Of a stretch of DNA of 32,304 bases, positions 7,030 through 32,304 are shown one piece after another. Each line of letters starts with the position of its first letter. The stretch's first letter is position 1. This DNA is from a candidate division GN15 bacterium. Lineage in GTDB: Bacteria > Zixibacteria > MSB-5A5 > GN15 > FEB-12. The position numbers were made by a program, and so were the translations under genes. The stretch spans positions 1-32,304 of the forward strand of contig WJMS01000079.1 in the NCBI GenBank assembly GCA_014727815.1, read 5' to 3'. Under the pieces are notes generated by a model that was not told the origin of the DNA, did no database searches, and saw only the letters and a program-made list of their open reading frames with translations.

Positions 7030-8331
7030 TCAGTAGCGGAATAGCAGCTCGGCCCGAATCCAGGCGTAGCTGTCGGCGGTCGTGGAATAGTAGTCGCCGG
7101 GCATGAAGCCTTCCCATAGCAGGTGGCCGGACCATCGCTCGCCAAACCGATACGACAGGCGGCCGATAAACAGGTCGCCGCGGCCGGTCCCGGTACCACC
7201 GGGGAAGTCCTGTGCAGTCGCAGCGTGCGGTGCGGCCAGGCGATGGTAGTCACCACGGAGGTCGACCTCGGGAGAGAGCGTGAAGCGTACGGTCGCATAC
7301 AACGACAGGAGATTGGTCCACCAGGCGACGGCATCCTCGCGAATCTGCGTGTAGATATACGACTCGCTCCATTTCGGCCATCGCGCAAACATCGGATCCC
7401 AGTCTTCCCAATCATCGGTGTCGGGATCGTCCCCCGACAGGTAAATTAACCCAACGGTGAGTGACGACGGCAAAAACCACTGCGCCGATGACCATCGTGG
7501 ACGGTAGTCCAGATAGGCATAGCCACCGTAGCCCCCGCGGTCGGCATCGCCAAAGCTGCCAAGCTGGTAGGCCGCTTCGATGACGGCCGTGAGGTTTTTC
7601 TGCGATGACAATGGTGTCTTGAGTCGGCCGCCAAGGGTGGTCACGGTCGATTCAAACGGAAAGGCGTCGCTGGCTTCGCGGCGTTTGTGCACAACATAAC
7701 CGTGCACATCGCGATCCCGCCACCGGCCGACATAGTAAGCGCCAAGGCCGGTTTCGGGCTGTTCGACGAGCGGCTGGTCCTGTTTGTGAATGATCGGCAA
7801 CCAGGTGTCGGTCTCGTCTTTGTAGCTGGCGAAGGTCGTCAGGGTGTGATGTTGACGGATATGCCAGTCGAACCTGATTGCGTTGAAGTAGATCGACCGG
7901 GAGCCGTCGAGTGGGTGACCATCCATGACAACAAAGCCCTCGCCGAGCATGATATTCTGGCGTCCGAGCGTGAGGGTTACCGGCCAGTCCCAGGGCTTGG
8001 CGAACCTGACGAACAACTGATCGACGAAGATCTCGTCGAAGTGAAAGTCGACCCCGGCCGGCTGCGTGTAGTAGCGAAACTCGTTGGCGAAACGAAGTCG
8101 AAAGGTCGTGACCGACGACGGCGAATACTCGGCCCCAAGCTGGGTGCGATGGCGAGTGAAGGCGCGCGAGGCGCCGGCGGATTGATCGAGGGTGATGGCG
8201 TTGTCCCAGGTGACCAGGCGGAAGCGTTCGGTGAGAGTGAGCGACCAGTGATCGTTGAGCTTCTTTGCCGACACCGATGGGACGAGCGCCAGGGTCAACA
8301 GCACCATTGCGATCATGAATCGCGGTGTCAT
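7030..8331 (-). CDS. Outer-membrane beta-barrel porin, Alginate_exp-like
   Basis: Signal peptide MTPRFMIAMVLLTLALVPSVSA; ERFRLVTWDNA...TRHRTQLGAEY...LRFANEFRYY...LTLGRQNIMLGEGFVVMDG; alternating-residue barrel strands and terminal aromatic residue (LLFRY). Confidence 0.8.
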   Translation of the reverse strand: MTPRFMIAMVLLTLALVPSVSAKKLNDHWSLTLTERFRLVTWDNAITLDQSAGASRAFTRHRTQLGAEYSPSSVTTFRLRFANEFRYYTQPAGVDFHFDEIFVDQLFVRFAKPWDWPVTLTLGRQNIMLGEGFVVMDGHPLDGSRSIYFNAIRFDWHIRQHHTLTTFASYKDETDTWLPIIHKQDQPLVEQPETGLGAYYVGRWRDRDVHGYVVHKRREASDAFPFESTVTTLGGRLKTPLSSQKNLTAVIEAAYQLGSFGDADRGGYGGYAYLDYRPRWSSAQWFLPSSLTVGLIYLSGDDPDTDDWEDWDPMFARWPKWSESYIYTQIREDAVAWWTNLLSLYATVRFTLSPEVDLRGDYHRLAAPHAATAQDFPGGTGTGRGDLFIGRLSYRFGERWSGHLLWEGFMPGDYYSTTADSYAWIRAELLFRY

Positions 8332-9767
8332 GCCGGCGTCGCCTGGCGTGGTGTGATCAAGCTGATTATCGGCGCGCTCACCAGTGAGGTGAGCATACCC
8401 AGGGTCCCCGCCTGCGGCGAGGCCGTTCCGGTGCCGTAGAGAACGAGGCAGACAGCGAGTCCTATCAGGCCCGAACCAATGGCGCCAAATCGGTTGGCTC
8501 GTTTGGTGAACAGGCCCCAGATGAACGGTCCGAGAAAGGCGGCGCCGATTGCTCCCCAGGAAATACCGAGGATACTGACGATCGTGGCCGGCCGGTAGTA
8601 CGCCATGACCACGGCGAGCAACACGATGACGGCACTGCTGATCCGCATGAGGCGGGTCAGGGTGGTATCGGAGGCGTCCTTGTTGATGAAGCCGGCGTAG
8701 AAGTCTTTGGCAATCGCCGAGCTGGAAATGAGCACAAGCGCGGCGAGGGTAGACATCGAAGCCGACAGAATCAGCAGCAGGATAAGCACCGAGAGGGCGT
8801 CGGGGATTATCCGGGTCAGCAGCTCGGGCATGAGTGCATCGAAGATCGGCTGGCTGTCACGGAAAGCCATGGGGGTGTTCTCGGGTGAGAGGAAAAATCG
8901 TGTTGTGGCGCCGGCGAAATAGCCGATGCCGGTGATGATCAGGGCGAAGATGGTGGAGCCGATCATGCCGATACGGATCGCGCGCTTATCGCGAATCGCG
9001 TAGAACTTCTGCACCAGCTGCGGCATGGCCATCGGCGCCACGCTCGTAAGGAAGACCAGACTCAACAACGGCCACCAGCCGGGCGGGCCGACCGGTTCGA
9101 CCAGTTTGGGATCGATCGCACCGAGGCCGTCGGTGATCTCACCAAGGCCGCCGCCGACATCGAGAATACTCACCAGCAAAACGCCCACCCCGAGGATCAT
9201 GATGATGCCGAAGATGACATCGATAATGGTAATCGACTTGTAGCCGCCGAGTACGAGATAGATGGCCGTGAAGCCGCCCATCAGGATCAGCGCGAGAGTG
9301 TAATCGAGGCCGAAGTTGGAGCGAAAGAGGTAGGACAGACCCATAAACACAGCGGCCGTATAGGGGATGAAGAAGACGAAGATGCAGAGCGAGGCGAACA
9401 GTTTGAGGAAGCGGCTGTCGTATCGCTTTTCGAAGAACTCGCCGATGGTGTGGACGCCGTAGTCGACCGACATCCGCTTGATCCGCGGTCCCAGCAGCCA
9501 CCAGACGAGAAGTACGCCGACCAGCGTGTTACCGGCCGCGACCCAGAGTCCGGAGAGGCCGAAGCCCCAGCCGATCTTGCCGGCAAAACCGATAAACATA
9601 ACGGCGGAGAAATAGGCGGTGCCGTAGGTGAACGCAGTCATCCAGGCGCCGACCTTGCCGCCGCCGAGGAAGAAATCGGAAAAGGAACGAGCTTTGCGAA
9701 ACCCGGCCAGCCCGACCCAGATGATCATCAGGGCGTAGGCGACCAGGACAATAATCTTGAGAACCAT
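8328..9767 (-). CDS. Sodium:solute symporter (SSS family)
   Basis: About 12+ hydrophobic segments; FFLGGGKVGAWMTAFTYGTAYFSAVMFIGFAGKIGWGFGLSGLWVAAGNTLVG, GGYKSITIIDVIFGIIMI, ILSASMSTLAALVLISSSAIAKDFY. Overlaps the porin start by 4 nt. Confidence 0.93.
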   Translation of the reverse strand: MVLKIIVLVAYALMIIWVGLAGFRKARSFSDFFLGGGKVGAWMTAFTYGTAYFSAVMFIGFAGKIGWGFGLSGLWVAAGNTLVGVLLVWWLLGPRIKRMSVDYGVHTIGEFFEKRYDSRFLKLFASLCIFVFFIPYTAAVFMGLSYLFRSNFGLDYTLALILMGGFTAIYLVLGGYKSITIIDVIFGIIMILGVGVLLVSILDVGGGLGEITDGLGAIDPKLVEPVGPPGWWPLLSLVFLTSVAPMAMPQLVQKFYAIRDKRAIRIGMIGSTIFALIITGIGYFAGATTRFFLSPENTPMAFRDSQPIFDALMPELLTRIIPDALSVLILLLILSASMSTLAALVLISSSAIAKDFYAGFINKDASDTTLTRLMRISSAVIVLLAVVMAYYRPATIVSILGISWGAIGAAFLGPFIWGLFTKRANRFGAIGSGLIGLAVCLVLYGTGTASPQAGTLGMLTSLVSAPIISLITPRQATPA

Positions 9768-10253
9768 ACCACTCTCCAGCCGTGCGAGAAGCGAACCCTG
9801 TTCGCAGCAACAGCCGGTAATGTAACCAAATCGACCGGGCAGGGCAAATGCAACCCTCCGGATTCCGGCGAGTGGAGTTCTTTCAGGCGAGACTGCCTAC
9901 GGCATACTTACTTTTCCGGCGTAATGTTGCGATTCTGATCGAGGTAGTTCATGTAGAGGCCGCCGGTAGCGTGCGGCGCCTGCTCGACGGCACTATGTTC
10001 ACTCGCGGGCGCACTCCCGTACGGGCGGACCGACTGATTGTGAACAATCGATCGAACTTCGTTGTTATCACTAGACACCGCGGAGAGGAACGACCGCCCG
10101 GTGTGTTCAGCATGATTGCGTGGCAGGGTGAGCCGGGCCGATCACGACTCGCACCGCTGCCGACACGTTTGTTATAACTATCTCCACCGCATGCACCAAC
10201 TCCATGGATCAGTCGAATTGAATATGCATTGAATGACCCAAGGAGGCGCCACT

Positions 10254-10652
10254 ATGCAGTTTCATGATTTCATTGGTCAGGTACAGCACCGCGCCAGGTT
10301 AGATTCCGAAGAAGCCGCACTCAAGTTGACCCGGGTGACGCTGGAGACGCTGTCCGAGCGGCTCGGTGGCGAGGAGCCGCGGGATCTGGCGGCGCAGCTG
10401 CCCGAGGAGATCGGCCGGTATCTCACCACGCCCGGCAAGGGTGAACGGTTTAACTCGGATGAATTCCTGCAGCGCGTTTCCGAGCGGGAAGGCGCCGATC
10501 TACCGAAGGCCGTCTATCATGTCCGGGCCGTTTTCGAGGTGCTCGGCGAGGCGGTCAGCGGCGGCGAACTGAACGACGTGCGCCAGCAGTTACCCGAAGA
10601 CTACCACCGGTTGTTCGAAGCCGGGACTTCCGGCGATATGCCCAATGCCTGA
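10254..10652 (+). CDS. DUF2267 domain protein
   Basis: MQFHDFIGQVQHRARLDSEEAALKLTRVTLETLSERLGGEEPRDLAAQLPEEIGRYL. AAGGAGG SD just upstream of ATG 10254. Confidence 0.88.
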   Translation: MQFHDFIGQVQHRARLDSEEAALKLTRVTLETLSERLGGEEPRDLAAQLPEEIGRYLTTPGKGERFNSDEFLQRVSEREGADLPKAVYHVRAVFEVLGEAVSGGELNDVRQQLPEDYHRLFEAGTSGDMPNA

Positions 10653-22760: not shown

Positions 22761-25700
22761 TTACTCGCACGGTTCCGGAGCAGGACCGCCGAGAAACAGG
22801 CTGTTTACCAGATAGGTCACATCGACCAGGTCAACATTTCCTTCCGGATCGCCATCGATATTGGCGGCCTCGAGACAGGGCGGGTTCGGGCCGCCGAGAA
22901 AGAGGTTGTTGACGAGATAGATGATATCGCTCAGATCGACGTTGTCATCGGGGTCATCGTCAACATTACCGCGCACCCGGCAGCACGACTCGCAGGCATC
23001 GCCGATACCGTCTTCGTCGCTGTCGATCTGGAGGGGATTGTACACCTCCGGACAGTTATCGCACGCATCGCCGACCAGGTCGTCGTCGGAGTCGATCTGC
23101 TCCGGATTGTACACATCACGACAGTTGTCGAAGCAATAGGTGAAGCCGTCGCCATCGCTGTCCGAGCTGTCACTGCACGTGGTCGGCAGGGCGCCCATAT
23201 CCGCGCGGGTGCCGTCGGGATCGTTGTACACGGGATCGGGATGACCGGCATTGATGCACGGTGATTGCTCCGAGAGGTTGAAGTCCTCGCCGGACAGGTC
23301 GACGAACATGGGATCCAGACTCAGTGAGCCCGGTCCGGGATCGATATGGTAGTAGTCGCCGGAGGCGTTCTGATAGGTGGTGTTGTAGTCGCAGATGGTG
23401 TTTTCCGAAGTGGCGACGAGAATCCCGAATCCGCCGTTGTTGAAGGCGACGATGTTGTTTCGGATCAGCGTATTGGGGCAGGCGCGAAGCGAGATTCCGG
23501 CGCCCGCGGTCTGGGCGGTGTTTCCCACTATCGTGTTACCGACGGCCGTGAAATTCGGACTTTCTTCTATCTTGAGGAAACTGCCCCCGGTCGGTCCTCC
23601 CGAATTGCCGTAGCCCAGGCAGCGAGTCACGGTCAGATTGGAAACACCCCAGGCGTAGATGGCGCCGTTGCCGACATTGTGTGCAAAGGTGCAGCGATCG
23701 ACCGTGATGTCGGAGCACTCCGTCAGGCGCAGGGCCCACGAGCCCTGATTTCCATTACCCGCAAATGTACAGTTCCGAAGGACCGTTCCGCTGCCCTCAC
23801 AGATTACCGCAACGATGGCATTGCTGAACTTGCAGTTGGTCAACGAGGGGGCGTTGCCCGAGTCAACTCTCACTGCCACCGTTCCGTCCGGGCACAAAAT
23901 CGTGAGGCCTGCTATAGACCCCGTGTACGAGGCATCCTGTGCGATACGCAGCGTCGAGTAGCCACTGCCCTCGAGAGTGAGCGTCGTCTGGTCCGGCCCG
24001 GCGGTACCGATCAGCGAGGGAGCGCCGCGACCGAATTCGATCGCCTCCGTATAGGTACCCGGCGCGAGCAAGATTGTATCGTAGCTGTTCGAAACAGCCA
24101 GCGCTTCCTGGATAGTGGCAAAGTCAGCCGGGACGTGCAGCATGTGCTCGAAGTCGGTATCGAAGGTCAAGTAGCGCCATTCGCCCCAGACACCGCCGTT
24201 GTTCAACCGTATCCTGAGGTAATAGGTGGTCAGGTCAGCCAGTGTCGCACCGGCATAGGCGGCCGCATGGGCCGACCCGGCCACCGGTCCGGTCGCCCAC
24301 ATTTCCGCCGCCGCCCAATCATCATCCGTCCCGACCTCAATTTCATACAGCGCTTGACCAGCAATGCTGGTATCGACGAAGGTCCAGTGCAGGGTCGGTG
24401 TCGGCTGCAGCACGGTTGTGAAAAAGCCATCGTCACCAAAGTGCAGATCGTTCGCAAACGGAAACTCAAGGCCGCCCCAGTCCTCCCCGGTCTCTCCGGC
24501 AGTGGCGTTGAGCCGCTTGTTGTACCGCCACATGTAGACATCCGATGGCGTGGAATTGTACGGGACATCGTCGAAGCGATGCATCACCAGTCGTCCCCGC
24601 TTCTGAGTGGCGCCGTCGATACACGGCGCCACCACATCGAGAAAACCATCACTATCGAAATCGCCAAGAGTGGGAACGTGGCCACTCAGGTTGGAGGCCG
24701 GCGTTGCGGCGGTCATGGGAAAGCCCGTCAGCGGCTCGCCAAGCGTTGAGAATGCCTGCAGGCGCACGGTCGGATTGGCATTGTTGTAGTCGCGGATGAA
24801 CAAGCTCAGGACATCCCGCTCGCCGTTGCCGGAAATGTCTCCCACGAGGGCATGTTCGACGATGCCCGGAGTCAAAGGCGAGGCAAACAGGCCCGACGTG
24901 GTCGTGTCACCGAGGTAGGACGACCCGTCGACATTCCACGCTCGCAGTGTGCCCTCGTAGGAGCAGAAGTACTCCAACTCACCGTCGTCATCGATATCCG
25001 TAAAGACCGGCATGCTGAGAATCGAGTATGGATATGCCGCCACAATGCCGGTTTCGTGCGGCCAGCCGGGGACCGGTTCAAGGCCGTAGTCGAACGCGTA
25101 GACATACCACTCGCCGCCGATCGACCAGGGATATGTCAGGCTCTGCTCCGCTCCCGTCACCACCAGTTCGAGCAGGCCGTCATTATCGACATCGGCTGCC
25201 GACAGGTGGGCGTGTACCGGCTGGATCGGGTTGATATCCGGTATGAGCCGGATCGAGTCCTGCGGACAACCGTCGATATCGAACCAGGTCAGCCACGGAC
25301 CGATGGCATACATTTCACAGTACCCGTCGCCGTTCAAATCAGCGGGCAGGAACTGCTCATAGACGCCTGGGGCGCCCCCGGTTGGGCTGCCGCACCAGGG
25401 CCGCAACGTGCCATCAGCATTGAACACGAAGCAATTGCTGGCATTCGTGTAGAGGTCAAACCCGGCGTCGTAGTGGATTTCATCCAATCCGTCATTGTCC
25501 ATGTCTCGCAGGAATACGGTCGGAGAAAGAGCCGCCAGTTCAATGGTACGATAGCTATCGGTCGGGCCGTTGTTGAGCAGGACACTGGTCAGGCCGACAC
25601 TCGAGCGGTAGATGAACAATGACACGCCCGCGACGACCACGAAGTCCTCGTAGTGATCGTAATCCAGTCGGCCGACGGCGACAGGCGCCACACGGAAGTC

Positions 25701-27962
25701 CAATCCGGGAAGGCTGGGCACACCGCTTGTCTGGATGGTGCCGTCATGATTGACGAACAGCAGGCCCGATTCCGTACCAAACATCAGTTCGACCTGACCA
25801 TCCTGATCCACATCAGCATAGCTGACGACTCGTCCGAGCCTGTCCTCGAAATCGAGCGTCCAGCCATCCGGCGAGCTAAACGGTGACTTGGTGTACAACA
25901 GCAATTGATCCTCCTCCGCCAGACCGCTGTCATCGAAGACTCGGAGGCGGACGGTGGTGGCGCCGTCGGGAAATTGCGAAGCGTCGACGGACGTCAGCAC
26001 CTCATCCGCCGCAGGAATCGACCGCGTGGCCAGGGTGACCCAGGTAGCCGGACTGGCGCCGGCGCCGTAATCGATGATGGCATGGCTGAAGTCGGGGCAG
26101 TGGGCTGAGCCGCGAAGTTCTACCAGACCGTTGACGCTGTCGTTCGGGTTCGGCGAGGTGAACTCCGCCACCGTGGTTCCGGTCACGAATACCCGGATGC
26201 GGTCGAGATTGTCTTCACCAACGCGGAGGCGGATGTCATACTCTCCCGGCGCCAGACCGCTGCAGTCCAGGGCGCCGAGCAGACCGTTGGTGACGGGTGT
26301 TGTAGAACCGAAAAAGGTCGTCCAGTTGTCGGTGCCCAGCGGGGCGTATTCCATCACCAGTTCGGCAAAATCACTGCCGTCGGCGGTACCAATAAAATTG
26401 GCGGTACCCGACAGTACGGTGAAGTTTCTCGGGCTGGTGATGACTGTACGGGTATCGGGTGTGGCCGCGAGGGCCGCGGCAATGTTAATGCGGCCCCAGC
26501 CGGAATACTGGTCCCAGCCGGGGTAGTCATCACCGACGCCGTACGGGTCGACCAGGTCGTCGGCGGTTGTTTCGATGATCTCGCGGACTCGCGCCCGGGT
26601 CAGCCCGGGCGAGACGGCGCGTATGGCGGCGGCCACGGCGGCGGCGTGGGGCCCCGCCATACTTGTCCCGGAGGCCAGGTAATAGTGATCGTCGATGATG
26701 TGGACATCCGGTTCCGGATTGGCGCCGCCATCGTACATGTCGGTGCCCCCGGCTCGTAGTGACAGGACCGATTGCCCCGGAGCACACACGCTGATGAATT
26801 CGTTGTACGTCGAGAAGTAGGTGACCTGATCGAGATCGTTGGTGGCGCCCACGGCCATCACCTCGGCGAAACAGGCCGGGTATTGAATCTCATAGTCACT
26901 GTCGTTGCCGGAGGAAGCGATCAATACGACGTTGTTGGCCGCCGCGTAGCCGAATACATCGAGCATCAAGTCGGTGGGTGAGAGACCGCCGAAACTCATG
27001 CTGATCACATCGGCGCCGTTGTCGACCGCATACACCATTGCACCGGCAACGACCGAATAGGTCATCACCGGACTGATCTTGAGCGCCATGACACGAACAT
27101 CGGGAGCAGCTCCGGCCACCCCGGCCCCGTTGCCGGTAACGGCGCCGACGATACCGGCGCAGTGGGTGCCGTGACCGAACGTATCATCGGGATCATTATC
27201 TCCCTCGGGTGGGATAGCGAGTACATCTCCGGCGATGTCATAACCGACATAGTCGTCGACATAGCCGTTATTGTCGTCGTCCAGTCCATTGTCCGGAATC
27301 TCCCCCTCGTTGTGCCAGAGGTGTGGAGCCAGGTCGGGGTGATCCAGGTCGAGCCCGCTGTCGAGAATCGCCACTATCGTGGTTACGGTCTGGTCGGGCG
27401 GGGTCGTGAAGACTTCATGGGCATCGATATCCCCATCCGGCGTGCCACTGACCAGCGCCAGGGTGTCGTTGTTCGCACCCGGCAGTCGCTCGACGTGGTA
27501 GTGCGGCTGGCCGTTGTTGTGCAGACTCCACTGGTGCGGATACAGCGGATCGTCGGGCGTGTCGAGGAAATACACGTACCCATCGGGAACGGCATACTCG
27601 ACCTCGGGCAGGCGCGCATACGCCTCGGCCATCGCATCCAGGTCGGCATTCCGTCCCGGCGCCAGTACGTACACGTGCGCCAGCGGATTGTCCGACGATT
27701 TCACGGCGGCCGGCTCGAGCAGTTTCCACTGTTGTTCCACGGCGTATCGGTCGTGCAGGGCGTCGACCGTGGCTATTCCGGTCCGGGGCAGGCTTTTGTC
27801 GTGGTGCTGCCTGACCGGCGCATCGGGGTGGAACTTGATGATAAGTTGATTCGGTTGACGCGGCTCTGGCGAGGTCGCCTCCGGCCACAAGAGAGCGGCG
27901 CTGTCTGGAGCCAGCAGGGTCGCAAGCAACAACGTCAGCAGCAGAACATGACGGATCCGCAT
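22761..27962 (-). CDS. Secreted multidomain S8 subtilase with FG-GAP/VCBS repeats, right-handed beta-helix, thrombospondin type-3 repeats and C-terminal dockerin-like domain (1733 aa)
   Basis: Signal peptide. Catalytic Asp [16 protein letters not shown], His [14 protein letters not shown], Ser [23 protein letters not shown] motifs ([72 protein letters not shown]). Beta-helix [29 protein letters not shown]3 [58 protein letters not shown]. Paired dockerin repeats. Confidence 0.95.
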
Positions 27963-28286
27963 GGTGAAACTCCTTATGGCCGTTGGGCCGTTTGCCCGGA
28001 GGTTACCCGAGCAGGGGCAGGTACCCTGAGCTATTGATGGGCTTTTGTGTATGCTGTCGATCTATGTCGAGTTTGTGCATTCCGACAAGTATCTTCGAGG
28101 AAGGGGCGCCGCCGGAGACGATTCGATCGGCCGCTTGTCTCCTCCCGTTCATGAATCTTATTTCCTGTCTATCCGCAATCTTGCATTACTCGGCGGCAAA
28201 ATGCGATTTCATGCTCCTTTTTATTGACTCGGGTGCTGTTGCTCTCTATGGTTGCCGCGAACAATCATGAAACCGGAGCGGGGGAC

Positions 28287-28823
28287 GTGACGCTCAAGAC
28301 CCTGTTCGATCGCGCGCGGAGCGGTGATACTGCCGCCGAGGAAGAGATGTTTGCCTATCTGCGTGCAAGATTTACATTCATTGCGAAAAGAAGAGTACGT
28401 GAGGGTGATGCCGAGGACATTGCCCACGAGGCCTGCATGACGGTGCTGGACCGGTATCGGGCGCTTGCGCCGGATACGGAATTCGAAGCCTGGGCCTACC
28501 GCGTGCTGCGCAACAAGATCGGCAACTACCTGCGGCACGGGGCGGTGCGCCGTCGCTATGACGCATCCCCGGACGCCCCGGACAGCCTCGGCAAAGGGCG
28601 GGCAACCGATCCCGACACGGTCCTGACCCTGGTTGAGTGTCTGCGGCGGCTGGTTCGGACACATCCGCGATACGCGCGCGTCCTGAACCTGCATCATCAC
28701 GGCTACGACAGTGAGGAGATCTGTCGTCGGTTGGAAATCAGTCGAAGCAACCTGTACTCGATGCTCAGTCGGGCGCGGGCGCTGCTCACCGAATGTATTT
28801 TCGGAACGGGAGATGACAAGTGA
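28287..28823 (+). CDS. ECF-type RNA polymerase sigma factor
   Basis: Sigma2-like LFDRARSGDTAAEEEMFAYLRARFTFIAKRRVREGDAEDIAHEACMTVLDRYRA...FEAWAYRVLRNKIGNYLR and sigma4-like LRRLVRTHPRYARVLNLHHHGYDSEEICRRLEISRSNLYSMLSRARALL. GTG 28287 with GGAG 8 nt upstream preferred over the TTG at 28224; ATG 28248 is an alternative. Confidence 0.88.
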   Translation: MTLKTLFDRARSGDTAAEEEMFAYLRARFTFIAKRRVREGDAEDIAHEACMTVLDRYRALAPDTEFEAWAYRVLRNKIGNYLRHGAVRRRYDASPDAPDSLGKGRATDPDTVLTLVECLRRLVRTHPRYARVLNLHHHGYDSEEICRRLEISRSNLYSMLSRARALLTECIFGTGDDK

Positions 28824-29509
28824 GCGAACGTTGTATCGATACCGAAACGGGCAACCTGCTGCACGGGTATGAACTGGGGCTGCTGACCGATGATGAAACC
28901 GGCCGGTTCGAAGAGCACCTGCTGTCATGCGAGTACTGCTTCGCGGAGTTGAAGCGCTTCGAAGAGCAGTCCCGGCTTCTCCAATCACCGGCTGTTGTGG
29001 GCGTTGAGCGTATCGCGTCGGAGGTTGAGGCAGCAGTCGACGAGTCACTGGGCGAGCGTCTCAAACGCTGGTTGTGGCCGGAGACACCCATCCTGTACCG
29101 CCCGGCCCTGCTGCTCGTCATCATCCTGCTTCTGTTGTATCCGGCATACCTCGGTCTCTTCCGGCAAGATGCACGGTTGGCGGTGCGCCCGGTAGCGGAA
29201 CTCTCGCTGCTGCCGACACGTTCGAGCGGCGCCGAAGCACCGGTGGTTGGCGCCGGGCAACCGGTGGTCATCGAGTTCGTGTGTTACGACAGTCAGCCGG
29301 GGCAGCCTTACCGCGTTCGCATTCTCGATGAGCGGGGGGAAGTAGTCTATGGAATCGATGAGTACCGGGGTTTCGATAAGTACGAGACCGGTCGCCTGCT
29401 GCTTGGGGCTGATCGGCTTCGTCCGGGCGCCTATCGCCTGGTGGTTGACGACTTCCTGACAAAGCCGCCCCGCTTGCTTCACGAATACGCATTCCAGATC
29501 GCCCCCTGA
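28820..29509 (+). CDS. Membrane zinc-finger (ZAS/zf-HC2) anti-sigma factor with exported C-terminal domain
   Basis: HxxxCxxC motif in FEEHLLSCEYCFAELKRFEE; single TM ILYRPALLLVIILLLLYPAYLGLF; about 115-aa C-terminal domain. GTGA overlap with the sigma factor stop. Confidence 0.85.
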   Translation: MSERCIDTETGNLLHGYELGLLTDDETGRFEEHLLSCEYCFAELKRFEEQSRLLQSPAVVGVERIASEVEAAVDESLGERLKRWLWPETPILYRPALLLVIILLLLYPAYLGLFRQDARLAVRPVAELSLLPTRSSGAEAPVVGAGQPVVIEFVCYDSQPGQPYRVRILDERGEVVYGIDEYRGFDKYETGRLLLGADRLRPGAYRLVVDDFLTKPPRLLHEYAFQIAP

Positions 29510-29553
29510 TCGGCCGCGCGGTTTCGCGCGTCAAGAGCCGACGCACCTGATTA

Positions 29554-29582
29554 TTGCCGTATACCACTCGGGCGGGTATATT
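29554..29582 (+). promoter_or_regulatory. Candidate promoter for the TPR-CHAT gene
   Basis: TTGCCG-N17-TATATT; the -10 ends 8 nt before the ATG at 29591, and no SD-like sequence is visible. Confidence 0.35.
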
Positions 29583-29590
29583 ATGGGTGC

Positions 29591-32304
29591 ATGTCCGATT
29601 CTTTCACGACATCCCGCATAGGAACGGTCTGTCGCTCGGTCGGTGTCCGACTATGCTGTGCGGTGCTGTTGATCGTTCTCGCGGGGCCGGCCGCGACAAT
29701 ATCGGCCCAGGCCGATAGTGCCCGTGCCCTGCTGGCGCTGGCCGACTCGCTCCAGAAGGCGAGTGCGTTCGACTCGACAGCGGTCATACTCGAACGGGCG
29801 CTGGCGGTGGCCGAGGAGTCGGGCGCCGATGACACCCTCATTGCCCGTATTCTCGGCAATGCCGGTACCGTGGCCACGGTCGCCGGCAACTATGACCGTG
29901 CCGAACGGTACTGCCGTCGCTCGCTGGAAGTCATCGAGCGGTTCGGCATACCGGACACCACGGCCTACGCCCGTGGCCTGTATCGCCTCAGCCACATCTT
30001 GTATCGCCACAAGGACTACGTGACTGCCGAGAGCCTGCTTACCCTTGCGGAGGGGTACGCGGAGATGGTGTCCCCGGTCAAGCATGTCGTTCTTTCGGCG
30101 GTGATCGATCTGCTGGCAATGATCCACATGGAGACGGGGCGACCGGAGTCGGCTGAATGGCTCTATCGCCGCGCTCTGGCGATGCGTCAGGAGCACCTTG
30201 GTGAGCGGCACCCGATGACGGCTACCAGTCTCACCAATCTGGCCATGCATCTCAAGGAGCAAAGCGAGTCTGATCAGGCTGAGCGCCTGTACCTTCGTGC
30301 GCTGGAAATCAAGCAAGAGGTAGCGGGGCCGAATGATATCTCACTTATCCCCAACCTGAACAACCTCGCTACGCTCTACAACGATCGGGCCGAGTATAGC
30401 CTGGCCGAGGACTACCTGTGGCGCGCGCTGCGAATCTGCCGCACCCACCTGCCGCCCGACCATCCGTACGCCGCCAGCGTTCGCAATAACCTGGCTGCAT
30501 CGATGTCGAGACAGGGCAAGTTCGTCGAGGCTGAACGCCTCTATCTCGAGGCGATCGACAACATCGGCGCCGCCCTGAGCCCGGAGCATCCCGACATCCC
30601 CTTCATCATGACCAGCCTGGCCGACCTGTATACGCTTGTGGGCGAGTACGGCAAAGCCGAGCAGACGCTGCATGCGGCCCTGGAACTGCTGCCCGATGAT
30701 GATCGCTCGTTTGCTGCGACCGGCGCGCGAACCTGGCGCAACCTTGCTGACTGCTACCGCGTGCAGGGGAAGTACGCTGAAGCCGACCGGCTTTTCAGTC
30801 AATCACTGGCGTTGACCGAAGAGCGGCTGGGTGAAGACCATCCCTCGGTTGCCGAAGTACTGGTGCTCTACGGCAATCTCAAACTCGATCTCGGTCTGGT
30901 CGGTGAAGCCGAGGAGCAGTATCGCCGCGCCGGCCGGATATACGAGTCGGCCTACAGCGATGCGCATCCTGACTACGCGTTGGCCCTGCATAATCTCGGC
31001 GTGCTGCATTTGCAAGCCCGTCGCCACGACCGGGCCCAGGCGTTGTTCGAGCGGGCTCTGCGGATCAACCGCGCGGCGGCCGGTCTTGAAAGCCCTCAAA
31101 GTGTGATGATGCTGCACAGTCTTGGCGCGTTGTGCGCCCGCCGCGGCGACACCACTGCAGCCGACACGCTGTTGGCCGAAGCCCTGTCGCGTCGCCTGGA
31201 TCTGTTCGGCGACGGGCATCGCGATGTCGCCCTCACCCGCCTGGCGTTCGGGTCGCTGCGCAAACTGCAGGGACGCTACGAGGAAGCGGAGGAGTTGCTT
31301 CGCCGGGCGCTGGATGATCTGGTTGCCTCGTTTGGTTCATTCCATCCGGAAGTTGCCATGGCCGAGGCTAACCTGGCCCGATTGTATGCGACCATGGAGC
31401 GGACGACGGTGGCGCAGGAACACTTCGCCCGGTCGATCGCCGTGCGGCAGCGTTTCCTCGACTATGCCTTTACCTTCTCATCCGAAAGCCAGAAGCTTCG
31501 CTGGCTCGACGCGTACCCGATGCTGGACAACGCGCTGCTGTCGTTCGCACAACATGCACAGCAACCGGAGATCACACTCGCGGCCGCCGAGATGATCCTT
31601 CGCGGCAAGGCGGTGGTCGCCGATGCGGTCATGGCCGAGCGCGAGGTCGTGCTGTGCTCCGACCAGCCGGAAATCCGCGCTGCGTTCGACCGCCGTACCG
31701 AAGTAAGTACACGTATCGCCAATCTGACCCTGGCCGGTCTGTTCGAGGATGTGGCCGCGGGCTATCGCGATACGCTCACGGCACTGACGCTTCGCCACGA
31801 CTCGCTCGAAGCCAGTCTCAGTCGGCAGTGCGCCGCCTTCAAGCTGGACATGCGCATCCGTGACGTGCACTGTCCCGATATCGCCGAGTCTCTCGAGCCC
31901 GGCTCGGCGTTGTGGGAGTACGTACGCTATGAACCGTATGACTTCGACACGATCGCGAGCGAAGATGATCGGGTTGGGCCGCCACGCTACCTCGGACTGG
32001 TGGTCGGGCCGGCCTGTGAGCCGACCCTGGTCGATCTGGGTGAGGCGGCGCCGATCGACAGCCTGGTCCGGCACGCCCGAGGTCTGATCGATCGAGTGGG
32101 CGCCGACATCCTCTCACCGCGTGCGGCCTTCCTCGAGGAACGACTGCGGGCGGTGCTGGCGGAACTCGCCGAGCGCGTGTTCGCGCCCATGGCGGCTGTC
32201 TCACCGAATGACACGGTGCTGTTCGTTTCCCCCGATGGCGCCCTGAATCTCATGCCGCTGCAGGTACTGCCGCTGGCGGACGGCGGCTACGTGGTCGAGC
32301 GGTA
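29591..32304 (+). CDS. Exported TPR-repeat protein with CHAT (caspase-like) domain, C-terminus beyond the window
   Basis: Not in the ORF track (open to the right edge). Direct translation: MSDSFTTSRIGTVCRSVGVRLCCAVLLIVLAGPAATISAQADSARALLALADSLQKA..., multiple kinesin-light-chain-like TPRs (YRRALAMRQEHLGERHPMTATSLTNLAMHLKEQ..., LFSQSLALTEERLGEDHPSVAEVLVLYGNL..., LFERALRINRAAAGLESPQSVMMLHSLGAL), then a CHAT-like segment YLGLVVGPACEPTLVDLGEAAPIDSLV...DTVLFVSPDGALNLMPLQVLPLADGGYVVER. Confidence 0.88.
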   Translation, partial: MSDSFTTSRIGTVCRSVGVRLCCAVLLIVLAGPAATISAQADSARALLALADSLQKASAFDSTAVILERALAVAEESGADDTLIARILGNAGTVATVAGNYDRAERYCRRSLEVIERFGIPDTTAYARGLYRLSHILYRHKDYVTAESLLTLAEGYAEMVSPVKHVVLSAVIDLLAMIHMETGRPESAEWLYRRALAMRQEHLGERHPMTATSLTNLAMHLKEQSESDQAERLYLRALEIKQEVAGPNDISLIPNLNNLATLYNDRAEYSLAEDYLWRALRICRTHLPPDHPYAASVRNNLAASMSRQGKFVEAERLYLEAIDNIGAALSPEHPDIPFIMTSLADLYTLVGEYGKAEQTLHAALELLPDDDRSFAATGARTWRNLADCYRVQGKYAEADRLFSQSLALTEERLGEDHPSVAEVLVLYGNLKLDLGLVGEAEEQYRRAGRIYESAYSDAHPDYALALHNLGVLHLQARRHDRAQALFERALRINRAAAGLESPQSVMMLHSLGALCARRGDTTAADTLLAEALSRRLDLFGDGHRDVALTRLAFGSLRKLQGRYEEAEELLRRALDDLVASFGSFHPEVAMAEANLARLYATMERTTVAQEHFARSIAVRQRFLDYAFTFSSESQKLRWLDAYPMLDNALLSFAQHAQQPEITLAAAEMILRGKAVVADAVMAEREVVLCSDQPEIRAAFDRRTEVSTRIANLTLAGLFEDVAAGYRDTLTALTLRHDSLEASLSRQCAAFKLDMRIRDVHCPDIAESLEPGSALWEYVRYEPYDFDTIASEDDRVGPPRYLGLVVGPACEPTLVDLGEAAPIDSLVRHARGLIDRVGADILSPRAAFLEERLRAVLAELAERVFAPMAAVSPNDTVLFVSPDGALNLMPLQVLPLADGGYVVER

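Follow-up and report, generated by a model that had tools for sequence, protein, structure and literature searches.

We describe a three-gene cassette at the 3′ end of contig WJMS01000079.1 (assembly GCA_014727815.1) of a candidate division GN15 bacterium of the Zixiibacteriota. The whole contig, 32,304 nucleotides (our contig C345), was analyzed and is called the window. The cassette encodes an extracytoplasmic function (ECF) sigma factor, a zinc-finger membrane anti-sigma factor, and a protein with TPR repeats and a CHAT domain (TPR-CHAT) that is predicted to be exported. We favor, with some reserve, the reading that it forms a protease-gated ECF sigma circuit independent of CRISPR (clustered regularly interspaced short palindromic repeats), in which the TPR-CHAT would act as a site-1-like protease on the anti-sigma factor. 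An earlier note on this DNA had proposed such a role. A conserved catalytic dyad, gene linkage across the phylum, matching topology of the two proteins and an invariant juxtamembrane Arg all speak for it, while we infer proteolysis itself, its site, the signal and the direction of control, so that the proposal stands only in part. The Asp with which separase holds a P1 Arg is not conserved, and linkage between ECF sigma factors and CHAT had been noted before (ECF54).

Results

Linkage of the three genes across the Zixiibacteriota

CHAT domains were searched for in 40 relatives and then in 111 genomes of the phylum, and about 100 neighborhoods were inspected. Cassettes were called with home-made profiles and hydrophobicity, and the signal peptides and transmembrane (TM) segments of these loci are predictions of this kind. 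Type A loci consist of an ECF sigma factor, a TM anti-sigma factor and an exported TPR-CHAT. Type B loci consist of an ECF sigma factor, a TM-less protein of about 195 amino acids (aa), a TPR-CHAT of about 920 aa without a signal peptide, and a secreted subtilase.

Of the 57 type A TPR-CHAT genes that have 1.5 kb or more of flanking sequence, 39 adjoin a sigma/TM-anti-sigma pair, which lies upstream in the same direction in 23 cases, downstream in the same direction in 2 and in convergent orientation in 14. This linkage in the Zixiibacteriota is not chance; the earlier note had asked for co-occurrence in related genomes, and it is kept across the phylum. Exported TPR-CHATs are present in 13/13 genomes with a window-type anti-sigma factor versus 5/28 without one (Fisher p 5e-7), and in G027 and G040 the pair and a TPR-CHAT are both present though unlinked. 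In type B, a sigma factor was detected at 27 of 28 loci, and the ~195 aa protein and the subtilase at all 28. The source genome (3.7 Mb in 364 contigs; completeness 92.6%, contamination 4%) holds two more type A cassettes (contigs C200 and C152) as well as two CHATs of type B, each at the end of a contig.

Several variants of these arrangements were seen. Loci L090-L099 and L141-L160 carry a near-constant four-gene block of sigma factor, ~195 aa TM-less protein, cytosolic TPR-CHAT and secreted subtilase. The type B ~195 aa proteins that were tested fall below every Pfam cut-off, and HxxxCxxC is kept in L078 and L080. Two or three TPR-CHATs per sigma/anti-sigma pair occur in L123 and L124, the latter with three tandem exported TPR-CHATs after one pair (L124:5029-16010), as if multiple sensors fed one switch. 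In what we call type C (L088:4054-6321 and 7941-10268; L089:6258-8507), an ECF sigma factor adjoins a protein of about 770 aa that has no CHAT and in which a zinc anti-sigma domain, a FlgO-like stretch and a TPR array are fused.

Topology of the anti-sigma factor and the TPR-CHAT

Where the start of the gene is present, a TM anti-sigma factor is linked to a TPR-CHAT whose N-terminus holds a hydrophobic segment (mean over 14 residues 1.6 or more, in most cases 2-3.4), and a TM-less anti-sigma-like protein to one below 1.5 on the same scale, with no exception among linked, complete genes. For both types, this pairing of TM segment and signal peptide predicts that the TPR-CHAT and the C-terminal part of the anti-sigma factor share one side of the membrane. 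A cytosolic TPR-CHAT would have spoken against the earlier proposal; every linked TM anti-sigma factor goes with a TPR-CHAT that, if its start is present, has a predicted export signal.

The TPR-CHAT might instead be the output of the circuit, that is, an exported protease made when needed under sigma control, with the anti-sigma factor sensing the signal itself through its outer domain. Sigma factors often adjoin their targets, the adjacent subtilase of type B is most simply an output, and several TPR-CHATs can follow one pair, as in L124. However, this explanation predicts neither the invariant Arg loop described below nor a TPR-CHAT sharing a compartment with the anti-sigma C-terminal domain in the cytosolic system, and in a weak test no shared ECF-like motif above shuffles was found upstream of the sigma and convergent TPR-CHAT genes. 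The earlier note had named the sigma factor's target as an alternative, and we keep it as an unlikely one.

The catalytic dyad

The earlier note had placed the catalytic His and Cys beyond the window, and their absence there would have told against a protease. The window does stop before the dyad, and the genome holds only two truncated CHATs: the one in the window, which scores above the Pfam cut-off in a whole-genome search (24.9 bits), and C342:1-849 (model positions 57-289). Compared with each of the 12 best relatives listed, the gap between the two pieces is about 2 residues. If the two contigs are neighbors, about 4 bases have thus been lost between them; their ends share no overlap, and the join is therefore putative. 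The rest of the CHAT very probably lies on C342 (G000:C342:1-858, locus L009), and this likely continuation carries both residues (HLATHGF and LSACESG).

Both His and Cys are kept in every CHAT domain scored, 76 of type A and 15 of type B. With the likely continuation and its relatives taken together, the window protein thus appears to have the dyad of a clan CD protease, and its full conservation suggests that catalysis is under selection in both types. A TPR-CHAT that serves only as a scaffold, the other alternative of the earlier note, was rejected, the dyad being invariant in 91 scored domains. In an AlphaFold2 model of a full TPR-CHAT (two-sequence input) the TPRs were good and the CHAT poor, and no fold search was based on it.

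An invariant basic residue next to the membrane

In the 55 linked TM anti-sigma factors one ectodomain column is always basic (54 Arg, 1 Lys) and the next residue is always S, A, G, N or T. No other ectodomain column is as conserved as this one, and mean pairwise identity across the 55 outer parts is only 20%. In the window protein the residue is R134, which AlphaFold2 places in the loop that links a short strand to the beta-sandwich, with a predicted local distance difference test (pLDDT) score below 50 at residues 135-139. The bond R134-S135 is our candidate cleavage site.

Another exported protease, DegS-like or trypsin-like, might cut this loop and the TPR-CHAT be a mere neighbor; classical site-1 cleavage is usually the task of housekeeping enzymes whose genes are unlinked. 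Yet the Arg loop is not general among TM anti-sigma factors of these genomes, since R[SAGNT] near the TM segment was found in 8/19 of those unlinked to CHAT, at scattered positions (Fisher p 2e-7, relatedness ignored), and we consider this explanation very improbable. A somewhat better case, though still a doubtful one, can be made for control without cutting, in which the TPRs bind the ectodomain, the Arg serves for docking, and the protease acts elsewhere. TPRs are protein-binding repeats, invariant Arg residues can form binding hot spots, and the Asp of the separase P1-Arg pocket is missing; however, the narrow choice of residue after the Arg and the low-confidence loop resemble a scissile bond more than a folded interface, and the complete conservation of the dyad would call for another substrate.

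The TM-less type B proteins have an invariant Arg of their own (31/31), in a D-S...V-R stretch before the C-terminal part. A common origin of this part and the type A ectodomain was not supported (hhalign probability 0.3%), and the type B Arg is therefore treated separately. In L117:4863-5918 and L129:5031-6107 a different TM protein lies between the ECF sigma factor and the exported TPR-CHAT; the one in L117 has no Pfam match, and both carry TR[TA] outside the TM segment (NITRTGD and VRTRAMD).

Genes of the window

Open reading frames and Pfam matches bear out the three consecutive plus-strand genes that had been noticed before (Table 1). The sigma factor matches Sigma70_r2 (2.9e-10) and Sigma70_r4_2 (1.5e-7) besides Sigma70_ECF; its start is uncertain, with ATG 28248 and GTG 28287 as alternatives to the listed TTG. 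The GTGA overlap, also noticed before, is present and suggests that sigma factor and anti-sigma factor are translationally coupled. The anti-sigma factor was correctly described as having one TM segment and an extracytoplasmic part of about 115 aa: a single strong TM segment was found, together with a zf-HC2 match (7e-5), HxxxCxxC and the coupled ECF sigma gene, as in zf-HC2 membrane anti-sigma factors. In the AlphaFold2 model the outer part consists of an edge strand (126-130), a loop (131-148) and the beta-sandwich, for which a fold search returned only generic beta-sandwiches. The apparent signal peptide of the TPR-CHAT was likewise seen as a hydrophobic N-terminal stretch (CCAVLLIVLAGPAATISAQA), and Pfam matched the protein with TPR_12 (1.3e-81) and the first 54 CHAT positions (7e-4).

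Table 1 Positions of the cassette features in the window
Feature	Position	Strand	Basis or remark
ECF sigma factor (sigma2 + sigma4)	28224..28823	+	Sigma70_ECF 3.7e-11, TIGR02937 1.7e-17; 199 aa from TTG
GTGA overlap, sigma stop / anti-sigma GTG start	28820..28823	+	
Membrane anti-sigma factor, 229 aa: zinc anti-sigma domain, one TM, extracytoplasmic beta-sandwich	28820..29509	+	zf-HC2, hydrophobicity, AlphaFold2
Zinc anti-sigma motif HxxxCxxC (HLLSCEYC, residues 33-40)	28916..28939	+	Sequence
Anti-sigma TM helix, residues about 96-114	29105..29161	+	TM19=2.59; AlphaFold2 helix 93-117
Candidate cleavage site R134-S135, juxtamembrane loop (LSLLPTR/SSGAEAP)	29219..29224	+	Conservation; loop 131-148
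Extracytoplasmic Ig-like beta-sandwich, residues 149-227	29264..29500	+	AlphaFold2 pLDDT 81-92
TPR-CHAT (predicted exported), 904 aa in window	29591..32304	+	Open at contig end
Predicted TPR-CHAT signal peptide, residues about 1-41, AQA/D	29591..29713	+	Sequence; 14-residue hydrophobicity 2.74
TPR array, approximate limits	29723..31210	+	8 TPR_12 stretches
CHAT domain start, model positions 2-54	32150..32302	+	Pfam
Contig C345 (whole window)			3′ end falls inside CHAT of third gene

Divergent from the sigma gene lies a 1733 aa S8 subtilase (22761-27962, minus strand) that has FG-GAP repeats and a beta-helix behind a signal peptide. In these genomes S8 genes are repeatedly found close to CHAT. 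Both CHAT and subtilase adjoin the sigma factor in type B; the S8 gene of the window is not conserved with type A, and a conserved type A-subtilase link was rejected, as subtilases lie near only a few type A loci.

Cassettes in Bacteroidota and search for Cas proteins

Eleven plasmid loci from other phyla were inspected. A sigma factor, a TM protein and an exported TPR-CHAT occur together in two, both Bacteroidota (Chondrinema litorale, NZ_CP111057; Aureibacter tunicatorum, NZ_AP025312), and their CHATs keep the His and Cys; the remaining 9 have no such sigma/TM-protein pair. The presumed anti-sigma factors of both cassettes are not zinc-finger proteins. Exported Bacteroidota TPR-CHATs (L194:2763-6017 and L199:2610-5399) end in a C-terminal TM segment, which would tether the protease by the presumed anti-sigma factor. 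A match to RAMP-type Cas proteins (PF03787) was found neither in the window genome (G000) nor in six relatives, in agreement with the label CRISPR-free that the cassette had been given.

Discussion

Comparison with known systems

The closest parallel is type III-E Craspase (CASP: Cas7-11, Csx29, Csx30 and CASP-sigma; PMC10028731, PMC9729208), in which a TPR-CHAT is likewise encoded with an ECF sigma factor and an inhibitor. There, the TPR-CHAT protease Csx29 cleaves Csx30, which was proposed to relieve inhibition of the sigma factor (PMC10028731), and genes for CHAT substrates are commonly close by (PMC9729208). Freeing of the sigma factor by cleavage of the inhibitor is supported for Craspase; for the window cassette we propose it. 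The window genome, in contrast, lacks RAMP-type Cas matches, its TPR-CHAT is predicted to be exported, its inhibitor is a zf-HC2 TM anti-sigma factor rather than Csx30, and the CHAT sequence shows no more than distant similarity to that of the Craspase TPR-CHAT (E about 0.02).

The linkage of ECF sigma factors with CHAT is already known from ECF54. The passages on this group in PMC8999054, which cite Casas-Pastor 2021, give CHAT, subtilase and carboxypeptidase genes as its context, mention a proposed proteolytic control and describe it without an anti-sigma factor; the listed ECF54 model is actinobacterial (Geodermatophilus). Type B resembles this context of CHAT and subtilase genes, but has a TM-less anti-sigma-like protein, whereas type A has a zf-HC2 membrane anti-sigma factor, an exported CHAT and no conserved subtilase.

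As in the RseA/DegS/RseP and RsiW systems, the membrane anti-sigma factor would be cut outside and then inside to free the ECF sigma factor; site-1 cleavage is the work of a serine protease there and would be that of a clan CD cysteine protease from the same cassette here. In the CalpL/CalpT/CalpS system of type III CRISPR, a Lon-SAVED protease reportedly frees an ECF sigma factor from its inhibitor; that system differs from the window cassette in its protease fold, its cyclic oligoadenylate trigger and its cytosolic location. Searches of the open-access literature, which misses most subscription papers, yielded no TM zinc-finger anti-sigma factor with an exported TPR-CHAT, no cytosolic TM-less version and no invariant Arg loop.

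Proposed mechanism

By homology, the zinc domain of the anti-sigma factor would hold the sigma factor on the inside of the cytoplasmic membrane. The signal peptide is predicted to export the TPR-CHAT, so that a TPR superhelix and a separase/caspase-like CHAT with its His/Cys dyad would stand outside. A signal on the TPRs may, by analogy with Csx29, switch on the CHAT, which would then cut the exposed loop between the TM segment and the beta-sandwich, at or next to Arg134-Ser135 if conservation is a guide. Intramembrane and cytoplasmic proteases would finish the shortened anti-sigma factor, as for RseA, and free the sigma factor. In the cytosolic variant of the phylum, with sigma factor, TM-less anti-sigma-like protein and cytosolic TPR-CHAT, the secreted subtilase would be the likely output.

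Several observations weigh against cleavage by the TPR-CHAT. The conserved Arg could be a docking or structural residue, and an alignment-free test found it in 54/55 ectodomains versus 53% of shuffled ones, which is weak on its own. Separase binds a P1 Arg through D2151, where a Craspase CHAT is reported to have K670 (PMC9729208); the equivalent position here, hand-mapped to Trp+8 (counted from the conserved Trp), is Ala in L061 (an intact cassette, JAQVRW010000079.1) and L009, and without such an Asp, Arg specificity would need other acids. Other possible anchors are an invariant Asp at Trp+4 and a Glu that precedes the His strand and is almost invariant; in a published separase model, the Glu that serves as the second anchor for P1 Arg follows beta1 (PMC4626109). 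Roughly 10 type A genes lack a nearby anti-sigma factor, and the presumed anti-sigma factor of Chondrinema, the one Bacteroidota protein checked, lacks the Arg motif. Finally, the type B CHATs form one clade in the tree (support 97), so that the topology match reflects few independent events; the pattern is consistent but does not amount to a hundred separate cases.

Conclusions

We hold the chances to be about even that a widespread, CRISPR-free family of exported separase/caspase-like proteins are dedicated anti-sigma site-1 proteases, which would cut at a conserved basic juxtamembrane residue and have a cytosolic sister system. Such modules could have been a chassis for recruitment of the Csx29/Csx30/sigma arm of Craspase. 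On this reading the exact candidate bond would be R134-S135 and its equivalents, and ECF/CHAT/subtilase loci thought to be free of anti-sigma factors merit a new look for a TM-less one. If cleavage by the TPR-CHAT is true, bacteria would use extracytoplasmic caspase/separase-like proteases to switch ECF sigma factors, a single TPR-CHAT polypeptide encoded next to its substrate would be both sensor and protease, and Craspase would be one case of a broader CRISPR-independent signaling design.

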